A program made the position numbers and the translations under genes. A DNA stretch of 64,000 bases from Natrarchaeobius halalkaliphilus. Lineage in GTDB: Archaea; Halobacteriota; Halobacteria; Halobacteriales; Natrialbaceae. The notes under the pieces were generated by a model. The model did not search any database. It was not told the origin of the DNA and was given only the letters and a program-made list of their open reading frames with translations. Of this stretch, positions 18,601-37,102 are shown piece after piece. Within the stretch, counting starts at the first letter, position 1, and the number at the start of each line of letters is the position of its first letter. Where the stretch lies: assembly GCF_003841485.1 (NCBI RefSeq), contig NZ_REFY01000005.1, positions 62,001 to 126,000 of the forward strand, written 5' to 3'.

Positions 18601-18789
18601 ACACGTATCACGTCCGATCACCTTTTCGGTAATCGAGTAAACCCTCTCGATCCTCCGTAATAGTTATTCCGCCAAAGGGGCCCAGGACCGCTCGTGATCA
18701 CGTCGTCGATTTTCCTCGCTACCACAGTAGAAACACTTAAGTCTACGAGAGAGTCAGTTAGTGACACATCGCTTACTAGGTGTCCAGAG

Positions 18790-19767
18790 ATGAAACTCGC
18801 AACTTTTGAACCCCCGGAAGAGGCTTGTCTCGATCAGCGCGTCGGATGTTACGACGACGACGCGGAGACGCTAGTCGACGTGACCGCCGCGTACGCGACG
18901 TTGCTCGCGAATCGAGGGGAGCAGTGCCCCAACGAGATCGCACGGGCACACGCACCGACCGACATGATCGCGTTCTTAGAGCGCGGAGAGCGGGCGACGG
19001 ACGCGGCCGAGGAGGCGATCGAGTTCGTCCGAGAAACCGGTGGCGGTACCGGAATCGACGGACGCAGACTCGCGTACGACCTCGACGAGGTGTCCCTCCT
19101 CAGTCCCGTTCCCAATCCGACGTCCCTTCGCGATTACATGGTCGTAGAAGAGCACGTTCGGAACGCACTCGGCGACGACATCCCGGAGGAGTGGTTCGAA
19201 TTACCGGTGTACTACAAGGCGGACAGTAACTGTATCGGTCATCCCGACCAGGATATCGAGTGGCCGAGTTACACCGAGGAGATGGATTACGAGCTGGAAC
19301 TCGCCGCGGTTATCGGGAAAGAGGGACGCGATATCGCCGCGGAAAACGCCGACGAGTACATCGCCGGCTACACCATCTACAACGATCTGAGCGCTCGAGA
19401 TATGCAGTTCCGGGAGATGGAAGTAAATCTCGGTCCGTCCAAGGGGAAGGATTTCAACGGCTCGAACGTGCTGGGCCCCTTCCTCGTCACTCCGAATTCG
19501 ATCCGGATAGACGACGTCCGGATGACGGCTCGCGTGAACGGCGAGGTCTGGTCGGAGGGGACGCTCGGAGCGATGCAACACTCGTTCGCGGAAATGATCG
19601 AACACACCTCCCAGAGTCAGTATCTCTACCCGGGCGACGTGCTCGGGAGCGGAACGATCGGGATGGGGTGTGGACTCGAAATGGATCGGTATCTCAGCCG
19701 CGGCGACACCGTCGAACTCGAGGTCGAAGGTATCGGCACGTTGCGAAACCGGATCGTCGAACTGTGA
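18790..19767 (+). CDS. Fumarylacetoacetate hydrolase family protein
   Basis: 325 residues. The catalytic FAH domain occupies the C-terminal two thirds. The metal-binding acid pattern is seen in YELELAAVIGK, followed by YTIYNDLSARDMQ and KGKDFNGSNVLGPFLV. Family members hydrolyse C-C bonds in fumarylacetoacetate or fumarylpyruvate, or hydrate and decarboxylate 2-oxo-dienoates, late in aromatic-ring degradation. The ATG at 18790 is chosen because homology begins there. Its neighbours (alcohol and aldehyde dehydrogenases, VOC proteins) fit a ring-cleavage pathway, but the substrate is unknown. Confidence 0.85.
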   Translation: MKLATFEPPEEACLDQRVGCYDDDAETLVDVTAAYATLLANRGEQCPNEIARAHAPTDMIAFLERGERATDAAEEAIEFVRETGGGTGIDGRRLAYDLDEVSLLSPVPNPTSLRDYMVVEEHVRNALGDDIPEEWFELPVYYKADSNCIGHPDQDIEWPSYTEEMDYELELAAVIGKEGRDIAAENADEYIAGYTIYNDLSARDMQFREMEVNLGPSKGKDFNGSNVLGPFLVTPNSIRIDDVRMTARVNGEVWSEGTLGAMQHSFAEMIEHTSQSQYLYPGDVLGSGTIGMGCGLEMDRYLSRGDTVELEVEGIGTLRNRIVEL

Positions 19768-19858: not shown

Positions 19859-21223
19859 TTATTCCTGTACCCACACCGTCTTCTCGTTCACGAACTCGTG
19901 TATCCCCTGCTGGCTCAGTTCGCGGCCGTACCCGGAGTCTTTGATTCCGCCGAACGGCACCCTGGGGTCTGATTTGACGATCTCGTTTACGAAGACGCAG
20001 CCGGCTTCGATTCGACCGGCCAGTCGTTCTCCGCGCTCGAGGTCCTCCGTCCAGACCGATCCGCCCAGTCCGTACCGGGTCCGGTTCGCGATTTCGATCG
20101 CTTCTTCGGCGTCGTCGGCGCGAATCACCGCGGCGACGGGACCGAACGTTTCTTCACTCGCCGCCGGACAGTCCCGCGGAACGTCCGTCAGGACCGTCGG
20201 CGGATAGAAGTGACCGTCTCCTTCGAGCGGCTTTCCACCTGTTACGACCGTCGCACCGGCTTCTCGACTCTGTTCGACCTGCTCGTGTAACTCCTCCATC
20301 AGTCCCGCTCTCGCCTGGGGTCCGACGTCGGTCGATTCGTCGAGCGGATCTCCCACCTCCAGTTCCCGAACTCCCTCCACGAACCGATCGGTGAACTCGT
20401 CGTAGACCTCGTCCACGACGACGAACCGCTTTGCGGCGATACACGACTGGCCGGAGTTCTGATTTCTCGCCGTTACCGCCGTCTCGACGGCCGACTCGAG
20501 CGGCGCGTCTTCGAGCACGACGAACGGATCGCTGCCACCCAGCTCGAGGACGGTTTTCTTGAGCTCGCGCCCGGCCGTTTCGGCCACCGCTTTGCCGGCG
20601 AACTCGCTTCCGGTTACCGTCACCGCTCGTACCCTCGAGTTCGTTATCACGTCGTCAACTTTACTCGAACCGATGAGCAGCGAGGAGAACGCGCTCTCCG
20701 GGAATCCGGCTTTTTCGAACACTTCTTCGATCGCGAGCGCACAGCCGGGCACGTTCGACGCGTGTTTGAGAACGCCGACGTTGCCGGCGGCCAGCGTCGG
20801 GGCCGCGAACCGAAACGCCTGCCAGAACGGATAATTCCAGGGCATGACGGCCAGAACGACTCCCAGCGGCTCGTATCGGACGTACGCTTTGGCCTCGGGA
20901 ACCGTCCCGATCACCTCGTTCTGGAGCAACTCGATCGCTCGTTCGGCGTAGAACTCGCACCCCCAGGCACACTTTTCGACCTCCGCGACCGCCTGCGAGA
21001 CGGGTTTCCCCATCTCTCGAGTGATGAGTTCGGCGTACTCCTGCTTGTTGTTCCGGAGAATCTCAGCCGCGTTCGCCAGTAGCTGCTGGCGCTCTCGGAT
21101 CTCCGTCTGGCTCCAGTCAGCGAACGCCCGATCCGCCTCCTCCAGGGCGGTCTCGACTTCGCCGTCGGTGTACTCGGCGTAGCTATCGATAGTCTCCTCA
21201 GTAGTTGGATTGACGCTCTCCAT
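19859..21223 (-). CDS. NAD(P)-dependent aldehyde dehydrogenase, succinate-semialdehyde dehydrogenase-like
   Basis: 454 residues, a complete aldehyde dehydrogenase. Conserved residues visible are N130 (MPWNYPFW), K153, general base E227 (ELGGSDPF) and nucleophile C261 (NSGQSCIAAKRF). Sequence style (VNPTTEETI, then PFGGIKDSGYGRELS near the end) matches the SSADH/GabD group. It would oxidise a semialdehyde to the acid in the cytoplasm. The start at 21223 is preferred over an upstream ATG with a non-haloarchaeal N-terminus. Divergent from the VOC gene at 21390. Confidence 0.88.
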   Translation of the reverse strand: MESVNPTTEETIDSYAEYTDGEVETALEEADRAFADWSQTEIRERQQLLANAAEILRNNKQEYAELITREMGKPVSQAVAEVEKCAWGCEFYAERAIELLQNEVIGTVPEAKAYVRYEPLGVVLAVMPWNYPFWQAFRFAAPTLAAGNVGVLKHASNVPGCALAIEEVFEKAGFPESAFSSLLIGSSKVDDVITNSRVRAVTVTGSEFAGKAVAETAGRELKKTVLELGGSDPFVVLEDAPLESAVETAVTARNQNSGQSCIAAKRFVVVDEVYDEFTDRFVEGVRELEVGDPLDESTDVGPQARAGLMEELHEQVEQSREAGATVVTGGKPLEGDGHFYPPTVLTDVPRDCPAASEETFGPVAAVIRADDAEEAIEIANRTRYGLGGSVWTEDLERGERLAGRIEAGCVFVNEIVKSDPRVPFGGIKDSGYGRELSQQGIHEFVNEKTVWVQE

Positions 21224-21389
21224 ATTCCGGCGGATACTACAGAGGCAAAACACCTAACGCTTCCGCAACGAACCCCGGCCCGCGGACCGCATGGTCCAGC
21301 CTCGTCGACTCCTGGTGAAGCCGCTGTACACCGGTAATTTTATACATTTGTTGATGAAACACAACGGTGGACAGTAGCGTCCCATAGTA

Positions 21390-21839
21390 ATGATTGGAAC
21401 TGCACACCACTACGGCGTTACAGTATCGAATCTCGACGACGTGTTGCCGTTTTATCGCGATACCCTCGGCCTCGAGGTTATCTCTGAGGGGCACGTAGAA
21501 CGCGACACGGAGGATAGCGAAAAGTTCGAACACTTCGTCGGCGTCGACGGCGCGGTCGACGTCGAGGTCGTTTTCCTCGATGCGGGCGGCTGTCAGATCG
21601 AGTTACTCCAGTACAACCATCCTCCGGGCGACGACGCTCACGGCGCGAACAACAACGATGCGGGCGCTTCGCACTTTTGTCTCGAGGTCGACGACATCGA
21701 CGCAGTCTACGAGGAACTCACCGACGAGGGGATCGAATTCATCTACGAACCGATCACGCTCTCGAAAGGCGTTCGCGTGGCGTACATGTACGATCCGGAA
21801 GGCAACGTCGTGGAGCTCTCCGATCGGTCGCGGATGTGA
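21390..21839 (+). CDS. VOC superfamily protein, methylmalonyl-CoA epimerase/glyoxalase-like
   Basis: 149 residues spanning two VOC modules. Metal-ligand positions are visible: His in AHHYGVTV, Glu in GCQIELLQY, His in GASHFCLEV and Glu in GNVVELSDR. That four-ligand layout is shared by methylmalonyl-CoA epimerase and related isomerases. A TATA-like TTTATACAT is centred about 55 bases upstream. It opens the stretch leading to the molybdenum hydroxylase genes and may be cotranscribed with the next gene, 51 bases on. Reaction not assigned. Confidence 0.78.
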   Translation: MIGTAHHYGVTVSNLDDVLPFYRDTLGLEVISEGHVERDTEDSEKFEHFVGVDGAVDVEVVFLDAGGCQIELLQYNHPPGDDAHGANNNDAGASHFCLEVDDIDAVYEELTDEGIEFIYEPITLSKGVRVAYMYDPEGNVVELSDRSRM

Positions 21840-21890
21840 ACGGATCTACAAAAGATTCAAGTGTACTACGGATAACCAATACATATACAA

Positions 21891-22397
21891 ATGAGTATGA
21901 TATTCGACGGTGAGTTCGAGACTCACCGTGCTCCCGACGAACTGTGGACCTACTTCGCCGATCCCGATATCGTTGCGGACTGCGCGCCCGGAATGGAAGA
22001 GATGAACCACATCTCGGATTCGGAGTACGAGGCCACGATCACCGTCGGCGTCGGCAGCGTCAAACCAACGTTTTCGGTCGATGCGACCGTACTGGAGATG
22101 GAAGAGCCGGAAAAGTTGGTGATGAAAGCCGAGGGTAGCGGCGGGCGAAAAGGAGCGTTCGACGCCGTATCGAGGATGGAAATGACCGAAAGCGAGGACG
22201 GGGGAACGATTCTTAAGTGGGAGGCCGAAGCAAACGTTTCCGGTATCATCGCCAGTCTCGGCCAGCGTGCCCTCGGAAGCGTGGCGGAACGACTCATCGG
22301 TCAGTTCTTCGACTGCATGGAGGGGAAGGTGGAAGAAGGGGTGGATGCGACGCCTCGGATGGCACCGAAACCGGACGTCGAAGCCGATCTCGACTGA
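21891..22397 (+). CDS. coxG: CoxG-like SRPBCC domain protein
   Basis: 168 residues with the CoxG/START-like pattern: APDELWTYFADPDIVADCAPGMEEM at the start and a C-terminal GSVAERLIGQFFDCMEGKVEEGV helix. CoxG proteins accompany CO-dehydrogenase-type molybdenum hydroxylases and help tether or mature the enzyme at the membrane. Its place just before the FAD, Fe-S and Mo subunit genes supports that role here. There is no transmembrane segment. Confidence 0.85.
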   Translation: MSMIFDGEFETHRAPDELWTYFADPDIVADCAPGMEEMNHISDSEYEATITVGVGSVKPTFSVDATVLEMEEPEKLVMKAEGSGGRKGAFDAVSRMEMTESEDGGTILKWEAEANVSGIIASLGQRALGSVAERLIGQFFDCMEGKVEEGVDATPRMAPKPDVEADLD

Positions 22398-22516
22398 GCG
22401 GATCGACGAATTCGTCTTCGGTAACCTCTTCGAGGCACCACTGGGGAACTCTGCCCGTCGGTTCCTTCTTTCACAACCGGACTACTTTTGTCCCGTGATA
22501 ACGGATTTCGGGTCAC

Positions 22517-22762
22517 ATGGCACAACACTGTCCGGTCTGTGGAGACGTCTTCGAACACGTGCGACGAGAACGGCCCGAGGATCCGTCGTCCCATCCGGAT
22601 GCGATTCCGGGCCCCAATGCGTCGATCGAAGTCGAGGATCTCTGTCGAACCGACGACGACGATCAGTGGGACCGCATCTGTCACAAGGCCGCGATCGAAC
22701 GCGCCCACGGATCGATTATTCCCGTTCTCGAGGTTTTCTATCACTACTACGGCGACGACTGA
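22517..22762 (+). CDS. Small cysteine-containing protein next to the molybdenum hydroxylase genes
   Basis: 81 residues, acidic, beginning with a C-P-V-C knuckle and holding two more cysteines (DLCRTDD and DRICHKAA), which could complete a zinc site. Codon use is haloarchaeal and the frame is intact. No family is recognised. Position between coxG and the FAD subunit suggests an accessory, regulatory or assembly role, but that is inference from context only. Confidence 0.6.
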   Translation: MAQHCPVCGDVFEHVRRERPEDPSSHPDAIPGPNASIEVEDLCRTDDDDQWDRICHKAAIERAHGSIIPVLEVFYHYYGDD

Positions 22763-22913
22763 CCGTTATCATTCCCCAGCTTTGGAGGCCTCGCCCGCGA
22801 TAGTTCGGCTGGTTCGTCGCCGTCCCGAACTCACGCTGACGTCCGAGAGTGGTGCGAGTGTCATCAACAGGCAAAGATTTATGGTTCAGGTGATACCAAT
22901 TCTACCCTGTATC

Positions 22914-23804
22914 ATGAAATCAGAACCGTTCGTGTATCATTCACCGGTATCGGTGGAGGAAGTCGTATCGTTGATGAACGAGCACGATCACGCCGAACTC
23001 GTCGCCGGGAATCAGTCGCTCGCGATCCAGATGAACAACCGATTAGCGACGCCGGATCACCTGATCGACCTCAACGACGTGGACGACCTCGCGTACCTCG
23101 ACGAGCGTGACGGCGCGATCGAAATCGGTGCGATGACGACTCACAACACGATCGCAGAGTCGGACGTCATCGACCGAAAGTTGCCGATCCTCTCGGAGGC
23201 TGCACGGCAGATCGCCGGTCCGTCGGTCAGGAACGTGGGAACGCTGGGCGGCGGCATCGGCGAGGCCGATCCGGCGGGCAACTATCCGACCGTGCTGACC
23301 GCACTGGACGCGACGATCACGCTCACGTCGGAATCCGGCGATCGCTCCGTCGGCGTCGATGATTTCTTCATCGCGTACATGATGACCGAGGTCGGTGAGA
23401 ACGAAATGATAACCGGTGCCACCGTTCCGACCGACCCGTTCCCGATTGGCCGGACCGGAATGTCTTTCCTCGAGCTCAAACGCGTTTCACACACCTGGCC
23501 CAAACTGAGCGCGGCAGGGATCGTCCGAGTTGACGATCCGACCGCGAGCGAGCCTACCGTCGAGGAGGCGCGTCTAACATTCGCCAACGCGTCGGACACG
23601 CCGCTTCGAGTCGAGGCAGCGGAGAGTGCGATCGAAGGAACGTCGCTGACCGACGATGCGCTCGACGAAGCAGCAGGGATCGCGATGGATAGCGCCGATC
23701 CGGCGGACGAGATGCAGGCCGAGGCCGAGTACAAGGAAGAACAGGTTGGTATCTTCACCGAGCGTGCGCTTCGAGAGGCGTACGACCGAGCTCTGGACCA
23801 GTAG
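22914..23804 (+). CDS. coxM: Molybdenum hydroxylase FAD-binding subunit (CoxM/XdhB-like)
   Basis: 296 residues. The FAD-binding loops appear as AGNQSLAIQMNNRLATPDHL and GNVGTLGGGIGEADPAGNYP, followed by the CO-dehydrogenase flavoprotein C-terminal domain. It passes electrons from the Fe-S subunit to its acceptor. The ATG at 22914 is chosen because homology begins there and a TATA-like GATTTATGG lies about 35 bases upstream. The longer upstream frame is basic and not haloarchaeal in character. Followed by the Fe-S subunit after a 160-base gap. Confidence 0.88.
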   Translation: MKSEPFVYHSPVSVEEVVSLMNEHDHAELVAGNQSLAIQMNNRLATPDHLIDLNDVDDLAYLDERDGAIEIGAMTTHNTIAESDVIDRKLPILSEAARQIAGPSVRNVGTLGGGIGEADPAGNYPTVLTALDATITLTSESGDRSVGVDDFFIAYMMTEVGENEMITGATVPTDPFPIGRTGMSFLELKRVSHTWPKLSAAGIVRVDDPTASEPTVEEARLTFANASDTPLRVEAAESAIEGTSLTDDALDEAAGIAMDSADPADEMQAEAEYKEEQVGIFTERALREAYDRALDQ

Positions 23805-23965
23805 TACGTATCAAACACCGCGTTCGGACCACGCAACCGTTCAGTCACCATCCGATTCACGCGAAACAAAAGACGAGGTCGAACTGACCGCACGCAGGAG
23901 TCACGTACTCTTCAGCGAAAAAACTAAGATGCCTGGAAAGAAAAACAGAACCTGTGCGTTAAACC

Positions 23966-24484
23966 ATGATAGACAATACCAGTGATCGGCCTACGCAAGA
24001 GATTACTCTCACGGTCAACGGGAACGAAATTACGGAGGAGGTAGAGCCTCGACACAAATTATCGGACTTCTTGAGATATCGGGCCGATTCGACGGACGTC
24101 AGAGTGGGTTGTGAACACGGTGCGTGCGGAGCGTGTACCGTCGAGGTAGATGGAAAGAACGTGAAATCGTGTATGCTCTTTGCCGTTCAGGCCGACGGTT
24201 CTGACGTTCTGACGTCGACGGGTCTCAACGAAGACGATGGGCTGGGTCCGATTCAGGAGGCCTTCCACGAAAACCACGCGCTTCAGTGCGGATTTTGCAC
24301 GAGCGGGTTCATCATGGCGACGAAGGAGTTGTTGGAGAAAAATCCCGATCCCGACCGCGAGGAGATCGTCGATGGTCTCTCGGACAACATTTGTCGGTGT
24401 ACAGGATACGTGAACATCATCAAAGCGGTGGAGGACGCCGCCGACCGAATGGATACGGTAAGCCAGGCTACGGGTGACGACTAA
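23966..24484 (+). CDS. coxS: Molybdenum hydroxylase 2Fe-2S subunit (CoxS/XdhC-type ferredoxin subunit)
   Basis: 172 residues with both clusters. The plant-type 2Fe-2S site is C49, C54, C57 and C69 (GCEHGACGACTVE). The second, helical cluster is C108, C111, C143 and C145 (CGFCTSGF and ICRCTGY). All eight cysteines are present. It bridges electron flow from the Mo centre to FAD. Only two bases separate it from the large subunit, so the two are cotranscribed. Confidence 0.92.
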   Translation: MIDNTSDRPTQEITLTVNGNEITEEVEPRHKLSDFLRYRADSTDVRVGCEHGACGACTVEVDGKNVKSCMLFAVQADGSDVLTSTGLNEDDGLGPIQEAFHENHALQCGFCTSGFIMATKELLEKNPDPDREEIVDGLSDNICRCTGYVNIIKAVEDAADRMDTVSQATGDD

Positions 24485-24486
24485 CC

Positions 24487-27114
24487 ATGAGCCAAGCAGA
24501 AGAATCCAAAGCTGAGCGGATAAAAGAGGTAGAGGACCAAATCTCGAACCAGCCGACGCCGCAGAACTACGTCGGCTCGGAGGTTCGACGAAAGGAAGAC
24601 GAAAAAATACTGAAAGACCACCGGGAGTACGTTCAGGATCGAAATCCACCGAACGCGGTGCACGCAGCGTACGTTCGAAGTCCGCACCCTCACGCAGAAA
24701 TCAAGGATATCGACACGAGCGCGGCGGAAGAACACGACGAGTGCAAACTCGTAATGACCGTCGACGACTACAGAGACGCCGGCTACGCGCCGATGCTCTG
24801 CGGTATCCAGGAGTGGGCGGAGTGGCCGCTGGCCGACGGAAAAGTGACGTACGTCGGACAGTGCGTCGCGATGGTCGTCGCGACCGACCGATACGTCGCT
24901 GAGGACATCGCGGATCTCGTCGAGGTCGACTACGAGCGTCTCGATCCCCTCGTCGACGTCATGGAAGCCAGGGATTCCGACAACGTGCTCTACCCGGAGC
25001 TGGGGCCAAACGCCCCCTCCAACGTCGCGTTCGATGAGACGTTCGAACTCGGCGAGCCCGACAGGGTGTTCGAGGAGGCTGATCACGTCATCGAAAAGGA
25101 GTTCGACTGGGAAAGCCGCGCGTCCGGGGTTCCTCTCGAGACGCCGTCGGCTCTCGGAACGTGCAACATGAATCCCGAGGACGGGGAGGAAAAATTCCAC
25201 GTCTGGTCGAACCAGCAACTTCACACCTGGGCCGACGTCGCAATCTACGCCGCCCTCGATCAGCCGCGTGAAGAGGTTCGCGTCGAAGTTCCGTTGACCG
25301 CTGGTGGAAGTTACGGGACGAAACACGCGACCGTGTACCGTCACGCCGTGCTCACCGCCGTCGCCTCCGAGATGGTCGGCGGAAACCCGGTCAAGTACGT
25401 CGAAGATCGCATCGAGGACCTACAGGGCGGTGACAGCGCCTCGACCGATCGACACTACAAGGCGAAGATCGCGTTTACCGACGACGGTGAGATCCTGGCC
25501 AACGACTTCTGGCTCGCGGACAATTTCGGAGCGTTCCCGCGGTTCATCTGCACGAATCAGGTCCTGAAGCCCCTGGCCATCGTCAACGGTCCATACGACG
25601 TCGAGCACGCGCGCTACGAGTACGAGATCGTCTGTACGAACAAGATGCCCCAGACCTCCTACCGCGGCTTCGGAACGCCCGCACACAGCTGGGTGTGGGA
25701 GATGCTGATGGACGAAGCGGCGGACGTCCTCGATATGGATCCGACGGAGATCCGGCTGAAGAACTTCATCGACGAGGAGGACATGCCGTACAAGACGCCG
25801 TCGGCCAACGTCTACGGCGAAGGGGACTACTCGAAGACGGTCCAGAAAGTGTGGGATCTCGTCGAAGACGAGAAGGACGGTGGACTCCTCGATCCGGACC
25901 GGATCGAGGAGCTTCGTGAAGAGGGCATTTACCGCGGTTCCGGATCCGCGCTGGTGCTCGAGCCCGGTCTCGGCTGTTACGACTACCACACGCGCCAGTT
26001 CGTTCCGCGCGACGAGCTCGCGACGTACTACACCCCGGAGAACCGTGACTTCAGCGACGTCGTAACGATGGCGGAACCCCTCGAGGCCTACATTCGGACG
26101 GACGGAAAGGTCGTCGTGAAGATTTCGTCCGACGATCAGGGTCAGGGTCACCAGACCATCGCGTCGCAGATGTTGGCCGACGAGCTCGGGATCACGCCCG
26201 ACGACGTCGTCGTCCCACAACAGGACAACCTCGACGTCGCCAGCGACGTCGGGAGCGCGTCGTCGCGCATGGCTACGGTCATGTCGAGTGCCGCGATCGG
26301 TCTCGGGGAAAAACTGCGCGGCCAGCTCGAGGAACTCGCGGCCGATCACTGGGGTGTCGATGTTGAGCAGGCCGAGTTCGACGAAGGCGGCGTCAAATTG
26401 CTCTCGGCCGAGGGCGTCGACCCGGTCGACAAGCGCCACGCCGAGCGTCTCGAGCAGGAGTTCCTGACGCTCACTGAGCTCGTTCACATCGACAAGATGA
26501 TGGAAACCGGAGACTCCCACTTCAAGCCGCAGGCCGAACTCAAGACGTACGTGTACTACGAGTACCCGGACGTCGCCTACGAGAACAAGGAGTACTTCGA
26601 AGAAGCGATGATTCGAAAACGGCCCACGTATCCCAGCATCTCCTTCGCCGCTAACGTTCCGATCGTCGACGTCGACGTCGAAACCGGCGAGATCGAGATT
26701 CAGAAGATCTACTCCGTCCGCGACTCCGGACGCATCATCAATCCGATGATCGTCGAAGGCCAACACCACGGCGGTATCATGCAGGGTGTTGGTGCAGCCC
26801 TGCAAGAGGAGTTCGGGTACACCGAGGACGGTCAGCCGCAATCGACGACGTTCTTCGACATGATGCTGCCGAGCATCGAGAACGTTCCCGAACTCGAAAT
26901 CGAAAAGCAGGAGACGTGGTCCGTGTTCTCGAAATCCGGCGCGAAAGGGGTCGGCGAAACCGGTATCATGGACATTCCCGCGAGTCTCGCACACAGCGTC
27001 AACGACGCGCTCAAGCCGATCGACGTCACCGTCGAAGAGATGCCGATGACGCCGAATCGTGTTCGAAGCTGGGTCAGAAACTCCGAAGACGCTCCCGAAC
27101 CGGCAGACGACTAG
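24487..27114 (+). CDS. Molybdenum hydroxylase large (Mo-pterin) subunit, CoxL/XdhA family, not a form I CO dehydrogenase
   Basis: 875 residues, longer than the usual 770-810. It has the aldehyde oxidase/xanthine dehydrogenase N-terminal domain then the Mo-pterin domain. GGSYGTKH (about 273-280) corresponds to the GGGFG cofactor loop. The catalytic Glu is in GVGETG near residue 824. The active-site loop reads SYRGFGTP (391-398), not the AYxCSFR loop of true CO dehydrogenase, so it is a form II type enzyme hydroxylating an organic substrate such as an N-heterocycle, aldehyde or furan/CoA-linked acid. Substrate unknown. Confidence 0.88.
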   Translation: MSQAEESKAERIKEVEDQISNQPTPQNYVGSEVRRKEDEKILKDHREYVQDRNPPNAVHAAYVRSPHPHAEIKDIDTSAAEEHDECKLVMTVDDYRDAGYAPMLCGIQEWAEWPLADGKVTYVGQCVAMVVATDRYVAEDIADLVEVDYERLDPLVDVMEARDSDNVLYPELGPNAPSNVAFDETFELGEPDRVFEEADHVIEKEFDWESRASGVPLETPSALGTCNMNPEDGEEKFHVWSNQQLHTWADVAIYAALDQPREEVRVEVPLTAGGSYGTKHATVYRHAVLTAVASEMVGGNPVKYVEDRIEDLQGGDSASTDRHYKAKIAFTDDGEILANDFWLADNFGAFPRFICTNQVLKPLAIVNGPYDVEHARYEYEIVCTNKMPQTSYRGFGTPAHSWVWEMLMDEAADVLDMDPTEIRLKNFIDEEDMPYKTPSANVYGEGDYSKTVQKVWDLVEDEKDGGLLDPDRIEELREEGIYRGSGSALVLEPGLGCYDYHTRQFVPRDELATYYTPENRDFSDVVTMAEPLEAYIRTDGKVVVKISSDDQGQGHQTIASQMLADELGITPDDVVVPQQDNLDVASDVGSASSRMATVMSSAAIGLGEKLRGQLEELAADHWGVDVEQAEFDEGGVKLLSAEGVDPVDKRHAERLEQEFLTLTELVHIDKMMETGDSHFKPQAELKTYVYYEYPDVAYENKEYFEEAMIRKRPTYPSISFAANVPIVDVDVETGEIEIQKIYSVRDSGRIINPMIVEGQHHGGIMQGVGAALQEEFGYTEDGQPQSTTFFDMMLPSIENVPELEIEKQETWSVFSKSGAKGVGETGIMDIPASLAHSVNDALKPIDVTVEEMPMTPNRVRSWVRNSEDAPEPADD

Positions 27115-27379
27115 GTCGGATTCCCGTTCTCGAGTTGTCGATACTCACTCCCTCGAATCGAACGTTGCCGCGATTCGACGCCCGAAATTGAGGAACGTAG
27201 CGGTCGTTTTCCGTCCGGCACCGTTACACACCTCGAGCTAACCGATCGGACGTCGTCGTCGTCTCGAGACAATCGGTGCGTTTTCCGTCACCACTTGGCT
27301 ATTAATTACGGACAAATAGTATTAGATAGATTATCACTCCTCCCATAACATTTAGTGTGATTGCAACCAACAGGAGAAT

Positions 27380-27589
27380 ATGGGAGATGATAGCATCAAC
27401 CCAGCAATTATCAAAGCTCGTATTGTCGACAATATGGCCGTCGCCCGAGAGTACAACACCGAACTCATCGCGCGTGAAACGGACATCTCGACCGAAAAGG
27501 CCCAGGAGTATCTCGAGGAACTCGCCCGAGAGAACCGGATCCGAAAGCGCGAGAACGAGACGGGCGAAAAGTGGGTTCTCTTTCAGTAG
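27380..27589 (+). CDS. Small helix-turn-helix-like protein
   Basis: 69 residues, intact, with acidic and basic helices. Residues about 12-60 read like a winged-helix start (IIKARIVDNMAVAREYNTELIARETDISTEKAQEYLEELARENRIRKRENE), with recognition-helix character in TDISTEKAQEYLEEL. It may be a transcription regulator for the upstream molybdenum hydroxylase operon or the chemoreceptor after it. No named family is recognised with confidence. Confidence 0.6.
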   Translation: MGDDSINPAIIKARIVDNMAVAREYNTELIARETDISTEKAQEYLEELARENRIRKRENETGEKWVLFQ

Positions 27590-27740
27590 CGTCCCCGCGA
27601 CGAATAGTGCTCACTACCCATGATGATCACAACGTACGCGACGACGAACGGTGACCGGACGCGCCGACCGGAGGCGTTTCTCCTCCGGGAGATGACTACC
27701 CGGTATCTTCGTCTACAGGCCGCTCAGAAAGAGGCAACGC

Positions 27741-29351
27741 ATGTTTCCCGGTAACGACGTTCGACTGACCGAACACCAGTACTCGAACGGCCTCGCTGGA
27801 GCCGCGGTGGACCGGTCCGTTTCCGAGCGGAAGTCGTCCGCTGTGGTCCGTGCGGATGGCGGACGGGTCGAGACCGATACCTCCACCGACGGCCGGCTCG
27901 GCGGGACGACTGCTCCTCTCAGTATTCACGACGTGTTAGACGTCCTCCCGATGCCCGTCTTCGTTCTCGATGCGAATCATACGGTCGTCGCCTGGAACGC
28001 GGCAATCGAAGCGCTGTACGGCCGACCGAGAGAACGGGTGCTCGGAAGCGACGAGTACGTCGGGCGCGACGAGAACGGCGATCCGGTTCCGACGCTTGCC
28101 GACAAAATCGTCGAATCGCCACGAACCGTTCCGGACTTCGACGGCGCAGAGGCGTACAACAGTCCCTACATGGACGGTCACGTCTACACGGGTACCGCCA
28201 CGATCCAGACCGCAAGCGGCGATGTCCGTCACTTTCGGTTGATCGGCGTGCCGGTATTTCGCGGCGACGAGGTGATCGGCGTCGTCCAGCAGTTCGAAGA
28301 TCGAACCGACGTCGTCCGCCGACAGCGGAGTACGGAGGACGCCGTAGAGGAGGTGATGGCGACGCTGAGACGTATCGGTGAAGGCGACCTTTCGGCGCGG
28401 GCCGAACTGTCGGACGAACAACGACGGCACACCGACGACTACTTGCTCGACGTGGTCGAGGGGATCAACGAGAACGCGGAGGCGCTCGAGTCGCTGGTCG
28501 ACGAAGTACGGCGCTCGACGGAGACGTTGACCGACCGGACCCGCGAGATCGCGGATCGAACCGAGTCGATTTCGGCGTTAGCTTCGCGCCAAAACGGAAC
28601 GTTAGAACGGACGGCCAACGAGGTGAGCAATTTCAGCGCCTCGATGGAAGAAGTGGCCGCGACAGCCGATTCCGTTGCGGAGGCCGCAGAAAACGCACAA
28701 CGGGCTGCTTCACGCGGCCAGCAATCCGGCGAGCAGGCGAGAGAGGCGATCGACGCCATGACCGAACAGGGCGAGCAGCTACTCGAGGTAGTCGGACGAC
28801 TCGAGTCGAGAGTGAACGAGGTCGATCGGATCGTCGACGTGATCGACGAAATCGCCGACCAGACGAACATTCTCGCACTCAACGCGACGATCCAGGCCGC
28901 CAGAACCGGCGAGGAGTCCGACGGATTCGCCGTCGTCGCACACGAGGTCAAACAATTGGCCGAGGAGACGAAGTCGAGGACCGACGAAATTGCAACTCGC
29001 ATCGACGACGTGCAGACGTACACGCGACAGACGTCAGAGGCGGTCGAGGACACCGATCGCCACATCGAACGGAGCACCGAGACGATCGACGAAGCGCTCG
29101 TCGCGCTCGATCAGAACGCGGCCGCCATCACGGACATCGCCGACAGCATTCAAGAAGTCGCGGAAACCAACGATCACCAGGCCTCGACCGCCGAAAACGT
29201 CGCGTCCGCTATCGAGGAGGTACGTGACAGAGCTAGCGAGATCGAGTCCGCGAGCGAAGAGATCACCGACCTGGTCAGCGAGCAGCGAGATACGACCGAC
29301 TCCCTCTCGGAGCAAGTTATGGAGATCAGCACCGGCGGCTCGCGGCGATAG
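27741..29351 (+). CDS. Soluble PAS-domain methyl-accepting chemotaxis transducer
   Basis: 536 residues, no transmembrane helix. An unstructured N-terminus leads into a PAS domain at about 65-185 (LDVLPMPVFVLDANHTVVAWNAAIEALYG). A HAMP-like linker follows (MATLRRIGEGDLSARAEL), then a long coiled coil with the conserved signalling tip IADQTNILALNATIQAAR and FAVVAHEVKQLAEET. It would signal to CheA/CheW from the cytoplasm, sensing a metabolite or redox state through PAS. The location between molybdenum hydroxylase and XdhC-type genes suggests it reports on this pathway. Confidence 0.88.
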   Translation: MFPGNDVRLTEHQYSNGLAGAAVDRSVSERKSSAVVRADGGRVETDTSTDGRLGGTTAPLSIHDVLDVLPMPVFVLDANHTVVAWNAAIEALYGRPRERVLGSDEYVGRDENGDPVPTLADKIVESPRTVPDFDGAEAYNSPYMDGHVYTGTATIQTASGDVRHFRLIGVPVFRGDEVIGVVQQFEDRTDVVRRQRSTEDAVEEVMATLRRIGEGDLSARAELSDEQRRHTDDYLLDVVEGINENAEALESLVDEVRRSTETLTDRTREIADRTESISALASRQNGTLERTANEVSNFSASMEEVAATADSVAEAAENAQRAASRGQQSGEQAREAIDAMTEQGEQLLEVVGRLESRVNEVDRIVDVIDEIADQTNILALNATIQAARTGEESDGFAVVAHEVKQLAEETKSRTDEIATRIDDVQTYTRQTSEAVEDTDRHIERSTETIDEALVALDQNAAAITDIADSIQEVAETNDHQASTAENVASAIEEVRDRASEIESASEEITDLVSEQRDTTDSLSEQVMEISTGGSRR

Positions 29352-29613
29352 CGTTGGCACAGGGGGTGACGACCGTCGACTACGGCTTCGCAATCGGACG
29401 ATCGCTCGTGATACTGCGCATAGACGTGATGAGGGCGATGATGGGTCCCTTTCGTGCGCGGATCGTTCACTCGAGATGTGGGTTCCCCGAAGCTATCCGC
29501 GGTGTCTTCCCGGCGAATCACGCAGCCGCTCGAGGCACCGTTTACGCTCGCGTACGGCGGTCGACACTCGCGTCCGGAAGAACATTTATGAGGGTGTACC
29601 GTAGAGTTGTTCT

Positions 29614-29955
29614 ATGGGGAATATCGTTTACGACAGTGACCTGGTCGAGCAATCGATTTCGGACGGGTTTCACGTCACTCGAATCGGGCGGAACGATCTG
29701 ATGAGCATCCAGCGCTGGGTGTGCGACCCCGGCGGATCGTTCCCCGAACATTCGCATCCACATCAGCAAATCGGCTACGTGTACAGGGGCGAAATGCACG
29801 TCTCCATCGACGGAGAGCAGTACGTTCTCGGTCCGGGTGATACCTACATCGTCGAGGGAAACGAGACCCACGCCGGAACTAACGAGGGCGACGAACCGGC
29901 CGAAGGCGTCGATATATTCAGTCCACCGCTGAAAGACTCCGACTGGATCGGCTGA
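29614..29955 (+). CDS. Cupin domain protein
   Basis: 113 residues, one cupin barrel. Motif 1 is PEHSHPHQQIGYVYRGE, where Gln takes the place of the usual Glu ligand; motif 2 is GNETHAG. A TATA-like CATTTATG lies about 28 bases before the ATG, suggesting a leaderless message. Likely a small metal-binding enzyme or ligand-binding accessory protein, separated by 90 bases from the XdhC-type gene downstream. Confidence 0.78.
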   Translation: MGNIVYDSDLVEQSISDGFHVTRIGRNDLMSIQRWVCDPGGSFPEHSHPHQQIGYVYRGEMHVSIDGEQYVLGPGDTYIVEGNETHAGTNEGDEPAEGVDIFSPPLKDSDWIG

Positions 29956-30044
29956 TTTGTCACGACGCGTCGCTCGGATTACGTTTCGGGACCTCCCCGG
30001 AGGTAACCGGTACGATTTAATCCGCGCGTCCACTATCGACCGGT

Positions 30045-31199
30045 ATGGACACCGACGAACTCGATCCGTGGAGCGCGACGACTGCGGAGCTGTATCGCAC
30101 GCTTCGCGCCCGATTGGACGGCGACGATCCCGCGGTGCTGGCCACGATCGTCGACGTCGACGGCTCGGCGTATCGTCGACAGGGTGCGAAAATGATCGTC
30201 GTTCCCGGCGACGACAGCTACGGCTCGATCACGGCCGGTTGTCTGGAAGGCCCAGTCGTCGATCTGGCGAACGCCGTGTTAGACGAGGGACGTGCCCGCG
30301 TCGAGACGTTCGACCTCATGAACGGCGACGAGTGGGGCCTCGGCCTCGGCTGTAACGGCGTGATCGACATCCTGCTCGAGCCCCTCGACAACAACTTCGG
30401 CGTCGCGCTCGACGCGCTCGCGAACGATCAGCCGGTGACGGTTCTCACGGCGGTCGAATCGTCCGATGGGAACGTAACGGTTGGCGATCGAACGGTTCTC
30501 GACTCCGATCTCTCGTCCCTCGGCGACGCCGACCGGAATCGACTTCCGTCCGAACTCGTCTCGAACGAGTCGGACGTCGTCGAGTCGCTTCGCGAGTCTG
30601 CGAGCTCCAAGGCGGTACAGCTCGAGACGTCTGCCGGAACCGTATCGGTATTCGTCGATCACCTGGAGCCGGTTCCCGAACTGTTACTCTTTGGCAATCA
30701 GAACGACGTTCATCCGGTTGCGCGGATCGGCCGAGAAGCCGGATTTCGCGTCGTCGTCGCGTCGTCTCGCGGCTCGCGATCGGACGGATCCGACTTCCCG
30801 TACGCCACCCGGGTGGTCTCGACGCATCCGACGGAGATCGACGAGGCGGTTCGCGCGCCGGAGAACACGTACGCCGTCCTGATGTCGCACAACTTCCTCG
30901 ACGATCGGCTGGCGCTCGAAACCCTCCTCGAGGGGACGTCAGTCCCGTACGTCGGCCTCATGGGGCCGCGAAAACGATTCGAGGAAATGCAGACGGAGTT
31001 CGAACAGGAGGGCGTGCAGCTGTCCCAATCCCAGCTAGAACGCGTGAGCACCCCCGTCGGTCTCGATCTGGGATCGGACGAGCCGATCCAGATCGCACTC
31101 AGTATCGTGAGCGAAACGCTCGCCGTCCACAACGATCGAAACGGCGGCCGATTGAAATGCCGAGAGGGTCCGATCCACGAACGCGTGACGACGCCGTAG
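30045..31199 (+). CDS. XdhC/CoxI family molybdenum-cofactor maturation factor
   Basis: 384 residues with both XdhC domains. Conserved GSAYRRQGAKM, C66 (GCLEG) and C103 (LGCNG) lie in the first, and a Rossmann domain begins near residue 210. These proteins insert the sulfurated molybdopterin cofactor into xanthine-dehydrogenase-type enzymes, here most likely the large subunit at 24487. The Rossmann loop is unusual: family members normally have G-A-G-H-D-[A/V], but here residues 217-222 read G-N-Q-N-D-V. A TATA-like GATTTAAT sits about 28 bases before the ATG. Confidence 0.85.
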   Translation: MDTDELDPWSATTAELYRTLRARLDGDDPAVLATIVDVDGSAYRRQGAKMIVVPGDDSYGSITAGCLEGPVVDLANAVLDEGRARVETFDLMNGDEWGLGLGCNGVIDILLEPLDNNFGVALDALANDQPVTVLTAVESSDGNVTVGDRTVLDSDLSSLGDADRNRLPSELVSNESDVVESLRESASSKAVQLETSAGTVSVFVDHLEPVPELLLFGNQNDVHPVARIGREAGFRVVVASSRGSRSDGSDFPYATRVVSTHPTEIDEAVRAPENTYAVLMSHNFLDDRLALETLLEGTSVPYVGLMGPRKRFEEMQTEFEQEGVQLSQSQLERVSTPVGLDLGSDEPIQIALSIVSETLAVHNDRNGGRLKCREGPIHERVTTP

Positions 31200-31541: not shown

Positions 31542-31958
31542 ATGTCGAACGAGAGCTATCACCTCGTCACCGTCGACAACATCGAAGCGGAACCCGATCG
31601 TCCCGATATCGAACCGGAGCCGGACCCGACCGCGGACGCGTTCTCGATTAGCGCGGAAACGGGCCTCGAGATTCTCGGCCTCCGAACCTACACTGCCGAG
31701 CCGGGCGAACAGCTCCCGCTCGCCTACCACTACCACGAAACCCAGGAGGAGGCGTTCTACGTGCTCGAGGGGACGTTGCACGTCGAAACGCCGGGGAAGG
31801 AGTACGTCGTTCGACCGGGCCACCTCTTCGCCGCCGAGGGGGGGAGCCCACACCGGGCGTACGTACCCGAGGGAGCGACGGAACCGACCCGCGTGCTCGC
31901 GATCGGTGCCCCATCCGACGATGCGGGACGGGTCTACGATCCGAACGACGACTCGTGA
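31542..31958 (+). CDS. Cupin domain protein
   Basis: 138 residues. A 45-residue lead precedes one cupin barrel with motif 1 YHYHETQEEAFYVLEGTLHVE and motif 2 EGGSPHRAY, so the metal site looks complete. A TATA-like ATTATATT about 28 bases upstream predicts a leaderless transcript. It lies 72 bases before the first BKACE gene and may belong to that pathway, for example as an isomerase or oxygenase. No substrate can be assigned. Confidence 0.8.
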   Translation: MSNESYHLVTVDNIEAEPDRPDIEPEPDPTADAFSISAETGLEILGLRTYTAEPGEQLPLAYHYHETQEEAFYVLEGTLHVETPGKEYVVRPGHLFAAEGGSPHRAYVPEGATEPTRVLAIGAPSDDAGRVYDPNDDS

Positions 31959-32030: not shown

Positions 32031-32975
32031 ATGTGGGATCTCCCCAGTCGAAACGTCGTGCTCACCTGTTCCGTGACGGGCGCGATTCACACGCCAACGA
32101 TGTCCCAGCACCTTCCGATAACTCCGGACGAAATCGTCGACGAGTGCGTCGCGGCCAGCGAGGCCGGAGCGTCGATCGTTCACGTCCACGTCCGCGATCC
32201 CGAAACGGGGGAGCCGACCTCGGACCTCGAGCTATTTTTCGAGGTTGCGAGGCGAGTGAGCGACCGAACCGACGTCATCGTGCAACCGTCGACCGGGGGC
32301 TCCCCGACGATGGAACCGGAAGAACGGGTCGCGGTCGTTCCCGAACTCGAACCCGAGATGTGTTCCTGTAATATGGGATCGATAAATTACGCGCTTTACC
32401 CGCTCGCAGAGCGATACGACGACTGGAAACACGAGTGGGAAGCGGACTACCTGACGGAGACGAAGGACTCGATCTTCAAAAATTCGTTCGAAGACCTGGA
32501 CGTCTTCCTGAACACCATGCGTCGACACGACACCGTGCCGTGTCTCGGCTGTTACGATGTCGGCCACCTCTACAACGTCCGTCGTTGTCTCGATCACGGG
32601 TGGCTCGATCCGCCGATATATCTCGAGTTCGTGCTCGGAATCGACGGTGGTATCGGGGTCGATCCGGCGAACCTTACGCACATGAAGGCTGTGGCGGATG
32701 AGCTGTTCGGCGACGCGTACTCGTTTTCGGTGATCCCAACGGGGACGATCCCGTTTCCCCTCGCGCTTCAATCCGTCTCGATGGGGGGCCACGTTCGGGT
32801 CGGACTCGAGGACAACCTGTACGTCGAGGAGGGGGTTCTCGCGACGAGCAACGCCGAACTCGTCTCGAAAGCGGTCGACCAGATCAATTCGCTGACCGAC
32901 CGGGAGCCGGCGACCTCCGCCGAAGTTCGGGAGTTTCTCGATCTGAAAGGTCGATCACAAACCGCGTTTTCGTAG
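32031..32975 (+). CDS. BKACE family (beta-keto acid cleavage enzyme) paralog 1
   Basis: 314 residues, TIM-barrel BKACE (DUF849). Family enzymes use Zn to convert a beta-keto acid plus acetyl-CoA to acetoacetate plus a new CoA ester. Zinc ligands H51 and H53 (HVHVRD) and E270-D271 (GLEDN) are present. Two active-site regions differ from the paralog at 35920: the segment before the GLEDN strand reads PTGTIPF (246-252) rather than G-x-G-R-H-[E/Q]-F, and residues 181-183 are C-L-G where the paralog has E-L-E. Substrate specificity has probably changed. Confidence 0.88.
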   Translation: MWDLPSRNVVLTCSVTGAIHTPTMSQHLPITPDEIVDECVAASEAGASIVHVHVRDPETGEPTSDLELFFEVARRVSDRTDVIVQPSTGGSPTMEPEERVAVVPELEPEMCSCNMGSINYALYPLAERYDDWKHEWEADYLTETKDSIFKNSFEDLDVFLNTMRRHDTVPCLGCYDVGHLYNVRRCLDHGWLDPPIYLEFVLGIDGGIGVDPANLTHMKAVADELFGDAYSFSVIPTGTIPFPLALQSVSMGGHVRVGLEDNLYVEEGVLATSNAELVSKAVDQINSLTDREPATSAEVREFLDLKGRSQTAFS

Positions 32976-33076: not shown

Positions 33077-33940
33077 TCAGCGTCGGATCGCCCGCGATTG
33101 CACGCGCCCGGGGGAGTCGACGTCGAACCGATCGCCGAGAGAAACGGATTCGATCGTCCGGGGAAACTCGAACGAGGCTGCGTGCTCCCCGAGTACGGCC
33201 GGGTTCGCGCCGACGCCGCGCCACAGATCGTGGTGTACCGGCAGGAGCCGCTCGAGTTCCAGCTGATTTGCAGCTTCGATGAGCTGATTCTCGTCCATGT
33301 ACCATCGCGTCCGTTCGATTTCGGTCCCGCCGGGAGCCGAGACGTTCCCGACGGATCCGAGCGCGAGCGCTCCCGCGTCGATGTCGAACTCGTCGGCAAT
33401 CGCCGGAAACCCCTCGGAATCTGGACGACTGTCGCCGCCGTTGAAAAACGTCCCCGACTCGTGTTCGATGACGTACGAGACTTCGTCGATGGCAGCCGGA
33501 TCGTTAGCACCGCGAACGTGGACGACGAGGTCGTCGATCCGTACGCTGTCGCCGGACGCGACCACGTGCTTCTTTTCGTCAGGAACGCCGATCTCGCCGT
33601 CGTACTGCGGGGAATCGTAACACGCTTCCGTCGCGTACACGTCGGCTCCGAGGTCGTCGACGAACGGCCGGTACGACGGCGGGTGCATGTGATCTAGGTG
33701 CTCGTGCGTGACCAACACCGCATCGCACTCGGTCGCGTCCGCCGGATCGAGCGGAACCGGAAGCATCCGGACGATGTTCGGCGGATCACCGTCACCGAAG
33801 TACGGATCGACGTACACGGTGGTCTCGGGGGTTCGCAACACGAATCCGGTACCGCCGATGTACCACATCGTTAATCCAAACGGTTCTACTGCTTCTATCT
33901 CGTCATTGACGAACCAGGTTCCCCAGTTCGAGTGAACCAT
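33077..33940 (-). CDS. Metallo-beta-lactamase-fold hydrolase (UlaG/UPF0173-like)
   Basis: 287 residues. The metal motif H-x-H-x-D-H is seen in VTHEHLDHMH, with further ligands along the fold. Overall sequence (WYIGGTGFVLRTPETTVYVDPYFGD) resembles L-ascorbate-6-phosphate lactonase and UPF0173 hydrolases. It probably opens a lactone or cyclic ester in the cytoplasm. The start at 33940 gives MVHSNWGTW and lies just before homology begins. It is convergent with BKACE paralog 1 and codirectional with the IclR gene upstream of it. Confidence 0.83.
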   Translation of the reverse strand: MVHSNWGTWFVNDEIEAVEPFGLTMWYIGGTGFVLRTPETTVYVDPYFGDGDPPNIVRMLPVPLDPADATECDAVLVTHEHLDHMHPPSYRPFVDDLGADVYATEACYDSPQYDGEIGVPDEKKHVVASGDSVRIDDLVVHVRGANDPAAIDEVSYVIEHESGTFFNGGDSRPDSEGFPAIADEFDIDAGALALGSVGNVSAPGGTEIERTRWYMDENQLIEAANQLELERLLPVHHDLWRGVGANPAVLGEHAASFEFPRTIESVSLGDRFDVDSPGRVQSRAIRR

Positions 33941-34142
33941 GAGGCGTAGACGTTCACCACAACGATAAGGGTTTACGTGACAATCGATCGTTTTCCTCCG
34001 ACGACACGGCGTCACCGGGAACCCGGTCGGTGATATCCGTCCCTCGCACCATCGGGAAACAACCGGGCGAGACTTTCACATCGAACGCACATCACTGCCA
34101 CGAGACGATACGAAACCACCGAGTCGAGAGTACGCGACCGAG

Positions 34143-34913
34143 CTAGGGATACGCGATATTGATCTCCAGTTCGTTCGCCGCGCCGACCAACAGATTTTGA
34201 ATCTCCCGTTTGAAGTTGTCTCCGGACATACGACCCGACGGCCCGGAGATACCGAGCGATCCCTGGATCGCTCCGCTCGACCCTTTCACCGGTACGCTGA
34301 CGGTGCTCAGTCCCTGTATATACTCCTCCTCCGCGAAGCCGACCCCTTTCTCGCGAATTTCCTCTAGCTCCTCGTCCAGTTCCTCTCTGGTCGTGATAGT
34401 TTCCGACGTCAACTCCGGTAATCCTCGACATTCGATAATCTCCTCGACCTTCCGCTCGGGTGAGTGCGCGAGGATGACTTTTCCGGCGGAGGTCGCGTGC
34501 ATGGGGATGCGTTTGCCCTGGTGGGAGTTAGCTCGAACGGCGGTTTCGCCGATCGCCCTGTGGACGAACACCGCGTATCCGTGCTCTTCGACGATGAACT
34601 CGGCGCGTTCGCCGGTTTCCTGCGCTAACTGTTCGACCTTCGGTTTCGCCAGCTTGTAGACTTCGGTTCGGTTTTGTGCAGAGTCTGCAAGCTCGAGAAA
34701 TCGCAATCCGACGTAATAAAAGTCGCCCTCTTGCGTAATAAACTCGTTCTTCTTCAGGGAGGACAGATACCGATGGGCCGTGCTATTCGCGAGATCGAGT
34801 TCGTCGGCGACCTCAGAAACCCGAGCTCCGTCCAGCTCTTTCAGCGTTTCGAGTATTCGAGCCGTGCGGTCGATCGTTTTCACGTTGCTTTGATCGGTGG
34901 TTCTGATCGCCAT
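34143..34913 (-). CDS. IclR family transcription regulator
   Basis: 256 residues. The winged helix-turn-helix is at about 12-65 (VKTIDRTARILETLKELDGARVSEVADELDLANSTAHRYLSSL). The effector-binding IclR domain follows, with the typical HATSAGKVILAHSP. IclR proteins repress or activate catabolic operons in response to a small acid. Two nearby in-frame ATGs give slightly longer options (34922 and 34937). It sits between the MBL-fold gene and BKACE paralog 2, all on the minus strand, and is the best candidate regulator of the BKACE-synthetase-thiolase module. Confidence 0.88.
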   Translation of the reverse strand: MAIRTTDQSNVKTIDRTARILETLKELDGARVSEVADELDLANSTAHRYLSSLKKNEFITQEGDFYYVGLRFLELADSAQNRTEVYKLAKPKVEQLAQETGERAEFIVEEHGYAVFVHRAIGETAVRANSHQGKRIPMHATSAGKVILAHSPERKVEEIIECRGLPELTSETITTREELDEELEEIREKGVGFAEEEYIQGLSTVSVPVKGSSGAIQGSLGISGPSGRMSGDNFKREIQNLLVGAANELEINIAYP

Positions 34914-34937
34914 GTGAACCATATTAACACACACCAT

Positions 34938-36861: not shown

Positions 36862-37102
36862 GCCGGCTCATACTGTACGCGTTCAGATAGATCTTCCGGT
36901 GGATACGACCCCGAACCGGCGAAACCGTCGGTGTAGCCGCCGCCCATTTCCGGATGCGATCCGACTGAGACTCGACCCGACGTTTCGGCACCACAACAGT
37001 TAACTACGTGAGTAGCGATCATTCCGTCATAAGACGTCTACTACCCGTACGCGAACGCGTGTTCGTTCGTTTCGACAGACGTCACACTTGGTGGAACGAC
37101 CA

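Follow-up and report, generated by a model that had tools for sequence, protein, structure and literature searches.

A separate lineage of molybdenum hydroxylase in a conserved haloarchaeal gene set, possibly for the oxidation of a small cyclic compound

We analysed a 64,000-nucleotide window on contig C5 of a haloarchaeal genome (G000, 3.51 Mb), in which positions 21390-31199 encode a three-subunit molybdenum (Mo) hydroxylase with accessory genes; all coordinates are positions in this window unless a contig or locus is named. Families were called with Pfam, and subfamilies were assigned with NCBIfam models at their curated cut-offs. The segment holds ten plus-strand genes, all intact. Their families agree with the initial annotation, which had listed CoxG, a small cysteine-containing protein, an HTH-like protein, a PAS chemoreceptor, a cupin and an XdhC-type factor around the Mo hydroxylase subunits; the HTH-like protein is recognised only by a DUF7342 match below threshold. 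The FAD-subunit gene starts at 22914 and not at the mechanically listed upstream TTG. The [2Fe-2S] (FeS) gene lies 2 bp upstream of the Mo-subunit gene, the other intergenic gaps measure 51-265 bp, and in Natrinema gelatinilyticum BND6 (G397) the same genes are split into separate, differently oriented groups. The segment is therefore not one tight operon, as had been supposed; only the FeS and Mo genes abut. A sigma-70 and terminator scan, of a kind unsuited to archaea, gave nothing clearly above shuffled sequences.

The enzyme belongs to the xanthine oxidase family: FAD, [2Fe-2S] and Mo subunits are all encoded, and the Ald_Xan_dh_C and MoCoBD domains, the catalytic glutamate and the Mo-pterin-binding motifs are present. 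Residues 385-398 of the Mo subunit read NKMPQTSYRGFGTP. They include the loop SYRGFGTP at 391-398 (window 25657-25680; SYRGFG at 391-396), as the initial annotation had noted, in place of the AYxCSFR loop of form I carbon monoxide dehydrogenase (CODH). GQGHQT (552-557) and GVGE with the catalytic Glu824 are in place; GQGHQT and Glu824 are invariant among relatives. The loop [A/S]YRGFG is the general xanthine-oxidase-type loop, usual for the enzyme family, so the label 'form II', which calls for AYRGAGR, was wrong. Indeed, the AYRCSFR (form I CODH) and AYRGAGR loops are borne by paralogs of the same genome (G000:C2:28126-30471 and G000:C4:285702-288047, respectively). The Mo subunit reached no curated NCBIfam subfamily cut-off, every score being far below: 350 against 991 bits for form I CODH (TIGR02416), 270 against 780 for xanthine dehydrogenase, 261 against 995 for 4-hydroxybenzoyl-CoA reductase, 394 against 790 for glyceraldehyde dehydrogenase and, for the best model, CODH group 5, 406 against 950. 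The best models for the small subunits were those of glyceraldehyde dehydrogenase. Among solved structures, the closest matches are CoxL of 8uem (327 bits, distant), quinoline 2-oxidoreductase and 6-hydroxypseudooxynicotine dehydrogenase. At 875 residues the subunit is indeed longer than its relatives (816-830), by about 45-60 residues and not the 80 or so first stated; the excess consists of an N-terminal extension and short insertions at 174-177, 227-230, 512-517, 642-656 (the longest) and 677-680, and contains no extra domain. An AlphaFold2 model built from 15 sequences was poor (mean pLDDT 57).

Close copies of the Mo subunit are rare. Among 391 Halobacteria genomes they occur only in the window genome and in Natrarchaeobius AArcht7 (G308; 96% identity). 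A family-wide search added BND6 at 79%, with the genes on a plasmid of 1.6 Mb. Some 45 other haloarchaea of the 391 carry a relative at 44-50% identity. A pattern scan of genome contigs returned 30 loci, all haloarchaeal; its patterns were narrow, and bacterial relatives could escape them. In a maximum-likelihood tree, from which the characterised nicotinate, caffeine and isoquinoline enzymes were left out, the G000, AArcht7 and BND6 proteins form one lineage (support 100/100). This lineage, a group comprising Haloarcula JP-L23 and loci L067 and L073, and a third, large group all fall inside one haloarchaeal clade (100/100). The large group is itself a clade (99/97) that excludes the window protein, and the branch joining it to the JP-L23 group without the window lineage has support of 93/86, with a warning of long branches from the tree program. 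Furoyl-CoA-dehydrogenase-like proteins lie outside the whole haloarchaeal clade. The phylogenetic check proposed in the initial annotation thus placed the large subunit, with the references at hand, in a lineage of its own and not in a clade of known substrate. Judged by sequence, the Mo hydroxylase is a separate, undescribed lineage of an ordinary enzyme family; we found no paper on it.

The large group probably acts on a nucleobase, because its clusters hold NCS2 and cytosine permeases, cytosine deaminase and a dihydropyrimidinase-like amidohydrolase, in addition to PF04199, CoA-transferase III and MocA-like transferase genes. The window genome has a paralog in this clade (G000:C1:521140, in locus L046, G000:C1:511001-531000), and so has AArcht7. 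This sister clade, represented by L046, L064-L066, L146 and the roughly 45 loci noted above, is a candidate for an oxidative route in archaea that acts on xanthine or on pyrimidines (from uracil to barbiturate). A purine pathway involving other cox genes has been put forward for Haloferax volcanii, only as highly speculative (PMC8305020).

The conserved unit is larger than 21390-31199. Gene order is shared with AArcht7 between 0.8 and 42.2 kb, where the synteny ends. In BND6, 22 window genes from 1.4-39 kb recur at 44-85% identity, in changed order and orientation, within about 43 kb of the plasmid (24.7-66.8 kb). They encode two PF04199 hydrolases, two alcohol dehydrogenases (ADHs), the MFS transporter, both VOC proteins, the FAH-family protein, the aldehyde dehydrogenase, CoxG, the Cys protein, the FAD, FeS and Mo subunits, the HTH-like protein, XdhC, a cupin, the MBL-fold hydrolase, the IclR regulator, the AcsA-like ligase and the beta-keto acid cleavage enzymes (BKACEs), of which two in the window match one in BND6. 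As an internal control, window genes beyond 42.2 kb have no BND6 match, save one dehydrogenase at 26%. Since the 22 genes recur reshuffled while those later genes do not, the sequence comparison sets the true unit at 1.4-39 kb (Table 1). This joint recurrence strongly supports the earlier suggestion of a catabolic pathway that includes the FAH, aldehyde dehydrogenase and VOC genes.

Table 1. Genes of the conserved set and its neighbours in the window (percentages are identities)
Feature	Position	Strand	Basis and matches
cyclA, PF04199 'cyclase' metal-dependent hydrolase	1357..2148	-	Pfam, 113 bits; 71% in BND6 (two tandem copies)
ADH1, zinc-type alcohol dehydrogenase	2276..3385	+	Pfam; 71% in BND6, there directly upstream of the MBL gene
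MFS transporter	3450..4694	+	Pfam; 50% in BND6
cyclB, second PF04199 hydrolase	4786..5493	+	Pfam, 99 bits; 79% in BND6
VOC protein 1	6253..6786	+	Pfam; 46% in BND6, 55% in JP-L23 Mo cluster
LIV-type ABC importer (binding protein, 2 permeases, 2 ATPases)	8271..13274	+	Peripla_BP_6; in AArcht7, absent from BND6 cluster
ADH3, zinc-type alcohol dehydrogenase	17596..18621	-	63% in BND6 beside BKACE; absent at this place in AArcht7
FAH-family C-C hydrolase/decarboxylase	18694..19767	+	Pfam, 204 bits; 66% in BND6
Aldehyde dehydrogenase, succinate-semialdehyde-dehydrogenase-like	19859..21253	-	Pfam, 493 bits; best NCBIfam model succinate-semialdehyde dehydrogenase, below cut-off; 72% in BND6
VOC protein 2	21390..21839	+	Pfam; 85% in BND6, best conserved protein of the set
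CoxG-family protein	21891..22397	+	Pfam COXG, 102 bits; 64% in BND6
Small Cys-containing protein, 81 residues, no known family	22517..22763	+	96% in AArcht7, 65% in BND6 region
FAD subunit	22914..23804	+	FAD_binding_5, 167 bits; CO_deh_flav_C; 63% in BND6
[2Fe-2S] subunit	23966..24484	+	Fer2, Fer2_2; 70% in BND6
Mo subunit, 875 residues	24487..27114	+	Ald_Xan_dh_C, MoCoBD_1, MoCoBD_2; 79% in BND6, 96% in AArcht7
Small HTH-like protein	27380..27589	+	DUF7342, 20 bits, under cut-off; 44% in BND6
PAS-MCP soluble transducer	27741..29351	+	MCPsignal, PAS; in AArcht7, absent from BND6 cluster
Cupin 2	29614..29955	+	Pfam; absent from BND6
XdhC-type maturation factor	30045..31199	+	XdhC_C, XdhC_CoxI; 57% in BND6
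Cupin 3	31542..31958	+	Pfam; 57% in BND6
BKACE 1	32031..32975	+	Pfam, 327 bits; 64% in BND6
UlaG-like MBL-fold hydrolase/lactonase	33077..34015	-	Lactamase_B_2; 79% in BND6
IclR-family regulator	34143..34937	-	Pfam; 58% in BND6
BKACE 2, triacetate lyase-like	35920..36861	-	NCBIfam NF053538, 443 bits (cut-off 430)
Acetyl/acetoacetyl-CoA synthetase-like (AcsA-like) ligase	37088..39127	+	Pfam, NCBIfam; 69% in BND6
Thiolase and OB-fold (DUF35-type) protein	39155..40740	+	Pfam

The BND6 cluster lacks the LIV-type importer, whose membership of the unit is uncertain, a PEP_hydrolase/UPF0261 pair, the PAS-MCP gene and the cupin gene at 29614. The transducer is soluble, in keeping with its initial description as cytoplasmic, with no transmembrane-like stretch (maximum 19-residue Kyte-Doolittle score 1.43). 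It and the neighbouring cupin probably lie outside the core unit, in which they had first been included, and the chemoreceptor was dropped as a candidate pathway sensor. Within the core, the HTH-like gene of BND6 sits just upstream of xdhC, and a CoxG gene likewise stands beside the Mo genes at sister loci. The 81-residue Cys protein is confined to G000, AArcht7 and the BND6 region, apart from one weak partial match among the 391 genomes, and is thus a specific companion and marker of this Mo lineage. Three further stretches of the window are recorded here for themselves. The PEP_hydrolase-like (PF09370) and UPF0261 pair at 15475-17527 is kept in AArcht7. Positions 42300-58000, beginning where synteny with AArcht7 ends, are mostly of low G+C (0.40-0.50 in 44-52 kb) and hold an ABC-type importer-like set and a lipoprotein. 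A two-domain VOC protein at 60558-61541 has a catechol 2,3-dioxygenase-like domain; AArcht7 and the aromatic-type cluster L188 encode similar proteins.

The putative ring-opening enzymes have recurrent partners in other genomes. In Haloarcula JP-L23 and L073, homologs of cyclB (56%) adjoin genes for a Mo hydroxylase that belongs to this clade. The cyclA product, a PF04199 protein with the metal motif H-x-G-T-H-x-D, is a candidate counterpart of the dihydrophloroglucinol cyclohydrolase (DPGC) of Clostridium scatologenes. Homologs of cyclA (60-70%) occur in 43 of 125 Natrialbaceae genomes, and at ten loci examined the gene adjoins FAH in eight and BKACE in two. Genomes G071 and G101 have a BKACE2 homolog (66%) directly after cyclA, with an LIV-type ABC importer preceding the pair; these BKACEs score 445 bits on the model that BKACE2 itself passes, NF053538 (cut-off 430). 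The model is named for a 3,5-dioxohexanoate:acetyl-CoA enzyme, and by that name BKACE2 is of the triacetate lyase (TAL) type. A PF04199-BKACE pair is found in Halostella as well, and in G271 cyclA, FAH, the ligase (72%), the thiolase (72%) and the OB protein (49%) stand in one run. In L181 (1-5903) and L182 (5287-11938), an LIV-type ABC importer is followed in a single run by genes for a PF04199 hydrolase and for a BKACE resembling triacetate lyase, apparently a compact two-enzyme ring-cleavage module. Experimental precedent comes from C. scatologenes, where one pathway uses a Mn-dependent cyclohydrolase of the 'cyclase' family on the ring and a triacetate lyase of the BKACE family on the beta-keto acid derived from it (PMC10470551). 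Two assignments of flanking genes were abandoned: an inositol (IolM/IolN) route, ADH1 scoring 193 bits against 450 for IolM, and an ascorbate lactonase, the MBL protein scoring 77 bits against 306 for UlaG. Relatives of the latter sit in sugar-acid clusters, and we keep it only as lactonase-like.

From the pairings of cyclB with Mo genes and of cyclA with FAH or BKACE, the G271 run and the C. scatologenes precedent, we infer the following order. The Mo hydroxylase would set a water-derived oxygen on a ring carbon, most likely one that neighbours a nitrogen of the ring, to give a cyclic amide or a 1,3-dicarbonyl. The metal-dependent hydrolases encoded by cyclA and cyclB would open the ring, and the FAH, ADH and aldehyde dehydrogenase proteins would trim the chain. 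BKACE would then join the resulting beta-keto acid to acetyl-CoA, yielding acetoacetate and an acyl-CoA, and the AcsA-like ligase and thiolase would convert acetoacetate to acetyl-CoA. Electrons would leave via FeS and FAD, perhaps to menaquinone with the help of CoxG. We give an even chance to the proposal that the Mo hydroxylase performs the early oxidation of a small cyclic compound within such a pathway. More tentative is the idea that this is a new archaeal pathway, in which the hydroxylase of an undescribed lineage makes the cyclic amide or 1,3-dicarbonyl for PF04199 cyclohydrolases, with BKACE cleavage to follow. To our knowledge, no described pathway combines a Mo hydroxylase, a PF04199 cyclohydrolase and BKACE. 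As for the substrate, the initial annotation had suggested N-heterocyclic, furan or related compounds. We favour an N-heterocycle, a plausible choice given the nucleobase clusters in which the sister clade is found; next comes a carbocyclic dione, which BKACE2 and the pairings of cyclA would also fit. The case for a furan is weakened, as plasmid pHTA426, Halorussus and Halobaculum encode furoyl-CoA-dehydrogenase-like proteins that lie outside the clade and have CoA ligases beside their Mo genes.

Several points tell against the proposed pathway. The PF04199, FAH, ADH and BKACE families are diverse in their substrates; relatives of the MBL and cyclA genes are widespread in other contexts; and the genes are spread over about 38 kb in both directions, the unity of the pathway resting on three genomes, two of them close relatives. 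AArcht7, which holds the cluster, was reported to show active growth on none of the tested substrates except chitin and the chitin monomer, and its growth table shows no ring compounds of this kind among them (PMC12343721); the natural inducer may lie outside that range. It is also conceivable that the Mo genes are mere neighbours of independent sugar-acid or aromatic-acid sets on a catabolism-rich replicon. The MBL homologs in sugar clusters, the several directions of transcription and the prevalence of these FAH and aldehyde dehydrogenase types in sugar-acid pathways would suit this view, which we consider improbable, because the genes recur together in BND6 despite rearrangement, the later window genes are absent there, and cyclB accompanies Mo genes in two further genomes.

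A carbocyclic route is somewhat less improbable, though still unlikely. Here a phloroglucinol-, resorcinol- or cyclohexanedione-type ring would be the substrate. The Mo enzyme would hydroxylate the ring or dehydrogenate a cyclic alcohol, cyclA would encode a retro-Claisen enzyme like dihydrophloroglucinol cyclohydrolase, and BKACE2 would cleave triacetate. Such a route would explain why BKACE2 exceeds its model's cut-off, and the G071/G101 and Halostella pairs resemble DPGC-TAL; moreover, a xanthine-oxidase-type heterotrimer of Alicycliphilus is reported to oxidise cyclic alcohols (PMC4052635). However, the genes called and identified between 0.7 and 42 kb include no SDR-type phloroglucinol reductase (the rest of the genome was not searched), and the Mo enzyme has its sister clade in nucleobase clusters. 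If the enzyme instead oxidised a pyrimidine or purine, like that presumed sister clade, the remaining cluster would be coincidental. Its 44-49% identity to the nucleobase-cluster proteins and the similar loops (TSYRGFGTP and TAYRGFGVP) point that way, but 107 positions are fixed differently between the groups, 0.7-42 kb contains no nucleobase permease, deaminase or hydantoinase, and a paralog from the nucleobase clade is present as well in both the window genome and AArcht7, which leaves this possibility quite remote. Least probable, in our view, is an oxidoreductase acting on an aldehyde intermediate or on CO and not on a ring carbon. It would account for the best-scoring models (glyceraldehyde dehydrogenase for the small subunits, CODH group 5 for the large) and for CoxG; yet all scores are far under the cut-offs, the CODH loop is lacking, a true AYRCSFR protein being the product of another locus in the genome, and the set already has an aldehyde dehydrogenase.

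Most annotations of haloarchaeal Mo hydroxylases read 'xanthine dehydrogenase family' or CODH and name no substrate. The present locus sets apart a lineage whose rare gene set is conserved together with it and is plasmid-borne in BND6, and the candidate steps (hydroxylase, PF04199 ring opening, BKACE) are concrete enough to be tested in tractable haloarchaea. If correct, the ring-oxidation proposal would widen the known degradation range of soda-lake and saltern archaea.

Among related systems, the nucleobase-cluster 'xanthine dehydrogenase family' loci (the Natrinema zhouii plasmid, L146; G000:C1:521140) share the haloarchaeal clade (100/100), the FeS-Mo pair, CoxG, FAD, XdhC, IclR and a nearby PF04199 gene. 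They differ in their 44-49% identity and in having their own cytosine/xanthine permeases, cytosine deaminase, hydantoinase-like hydrolase and MocA-like gene, in whose place the window set has BKACE, FAH, ADH and the ligase. The Haloarcula JP-L23 plasmid cluster (L144), also uncharacterised, resembles the window in Mo subunit (44%), cyclB (56%), VOC (55%) and XdhC (58%), with CoxG and FAD-subunit genes nearby; it differs in its histidinol-dehydrogenase-like, SDR, FAD monooxygenase, amidohydrolase and asparaginase genes, and no BKACE match occurs in the 40 kb read. The furoyl-CoA-dehydrogenase-like enzymes (Geobacillus kaustophilus pHTA426, Halorussus vallis) are likewise three-subunit xanthine-oxidase-family enzymes with XdhC, but at 34% identity they lie outside the clade, have an RGYG loop and adjoin AMP ligases; they carry the furoyl label from context only, and the combination expected of furoyl-CoA dehydrogenase (HmfABC), clade membership with an adjacent CoA ligase, was not found for the window enzyme. 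The plasmid clusters L163, L164 and L165 (Halorussus vallis, Geobacillus kaustophilus and Halobaculum roseum) all include CoA ligases, with UbiD in Geobacillus and BenE in the archaea. A kynurenine cluster on a Natronococcus AD-5 plasmid (L159, 16664-21760) contains IDO, kynureninase, a PF04199 hydrolase and FAH. Its cyclA (64%) and FAH (57%) homologs are adjacent to each other; unlike the window genes they stand beside IDO and kynureninase, and the 41 kb read there contain no match to the Mo hydroxylase. Finally, the anaerobic phloroglucinol pathway of C. scatologenes (PGR-DPGC-TfD-TAL) shares with the window set a 'cyclase'-family hydrolase, a BKACE-family triacetate lyase, a dehydrogenase, a thiolase and a transporter; the window set, with no SDR found in 0.7-42 kb, belongs to an aerobic archaeon and adds the Mo hydroxylase and the FAH and aldehyde dehydrogenase genes.

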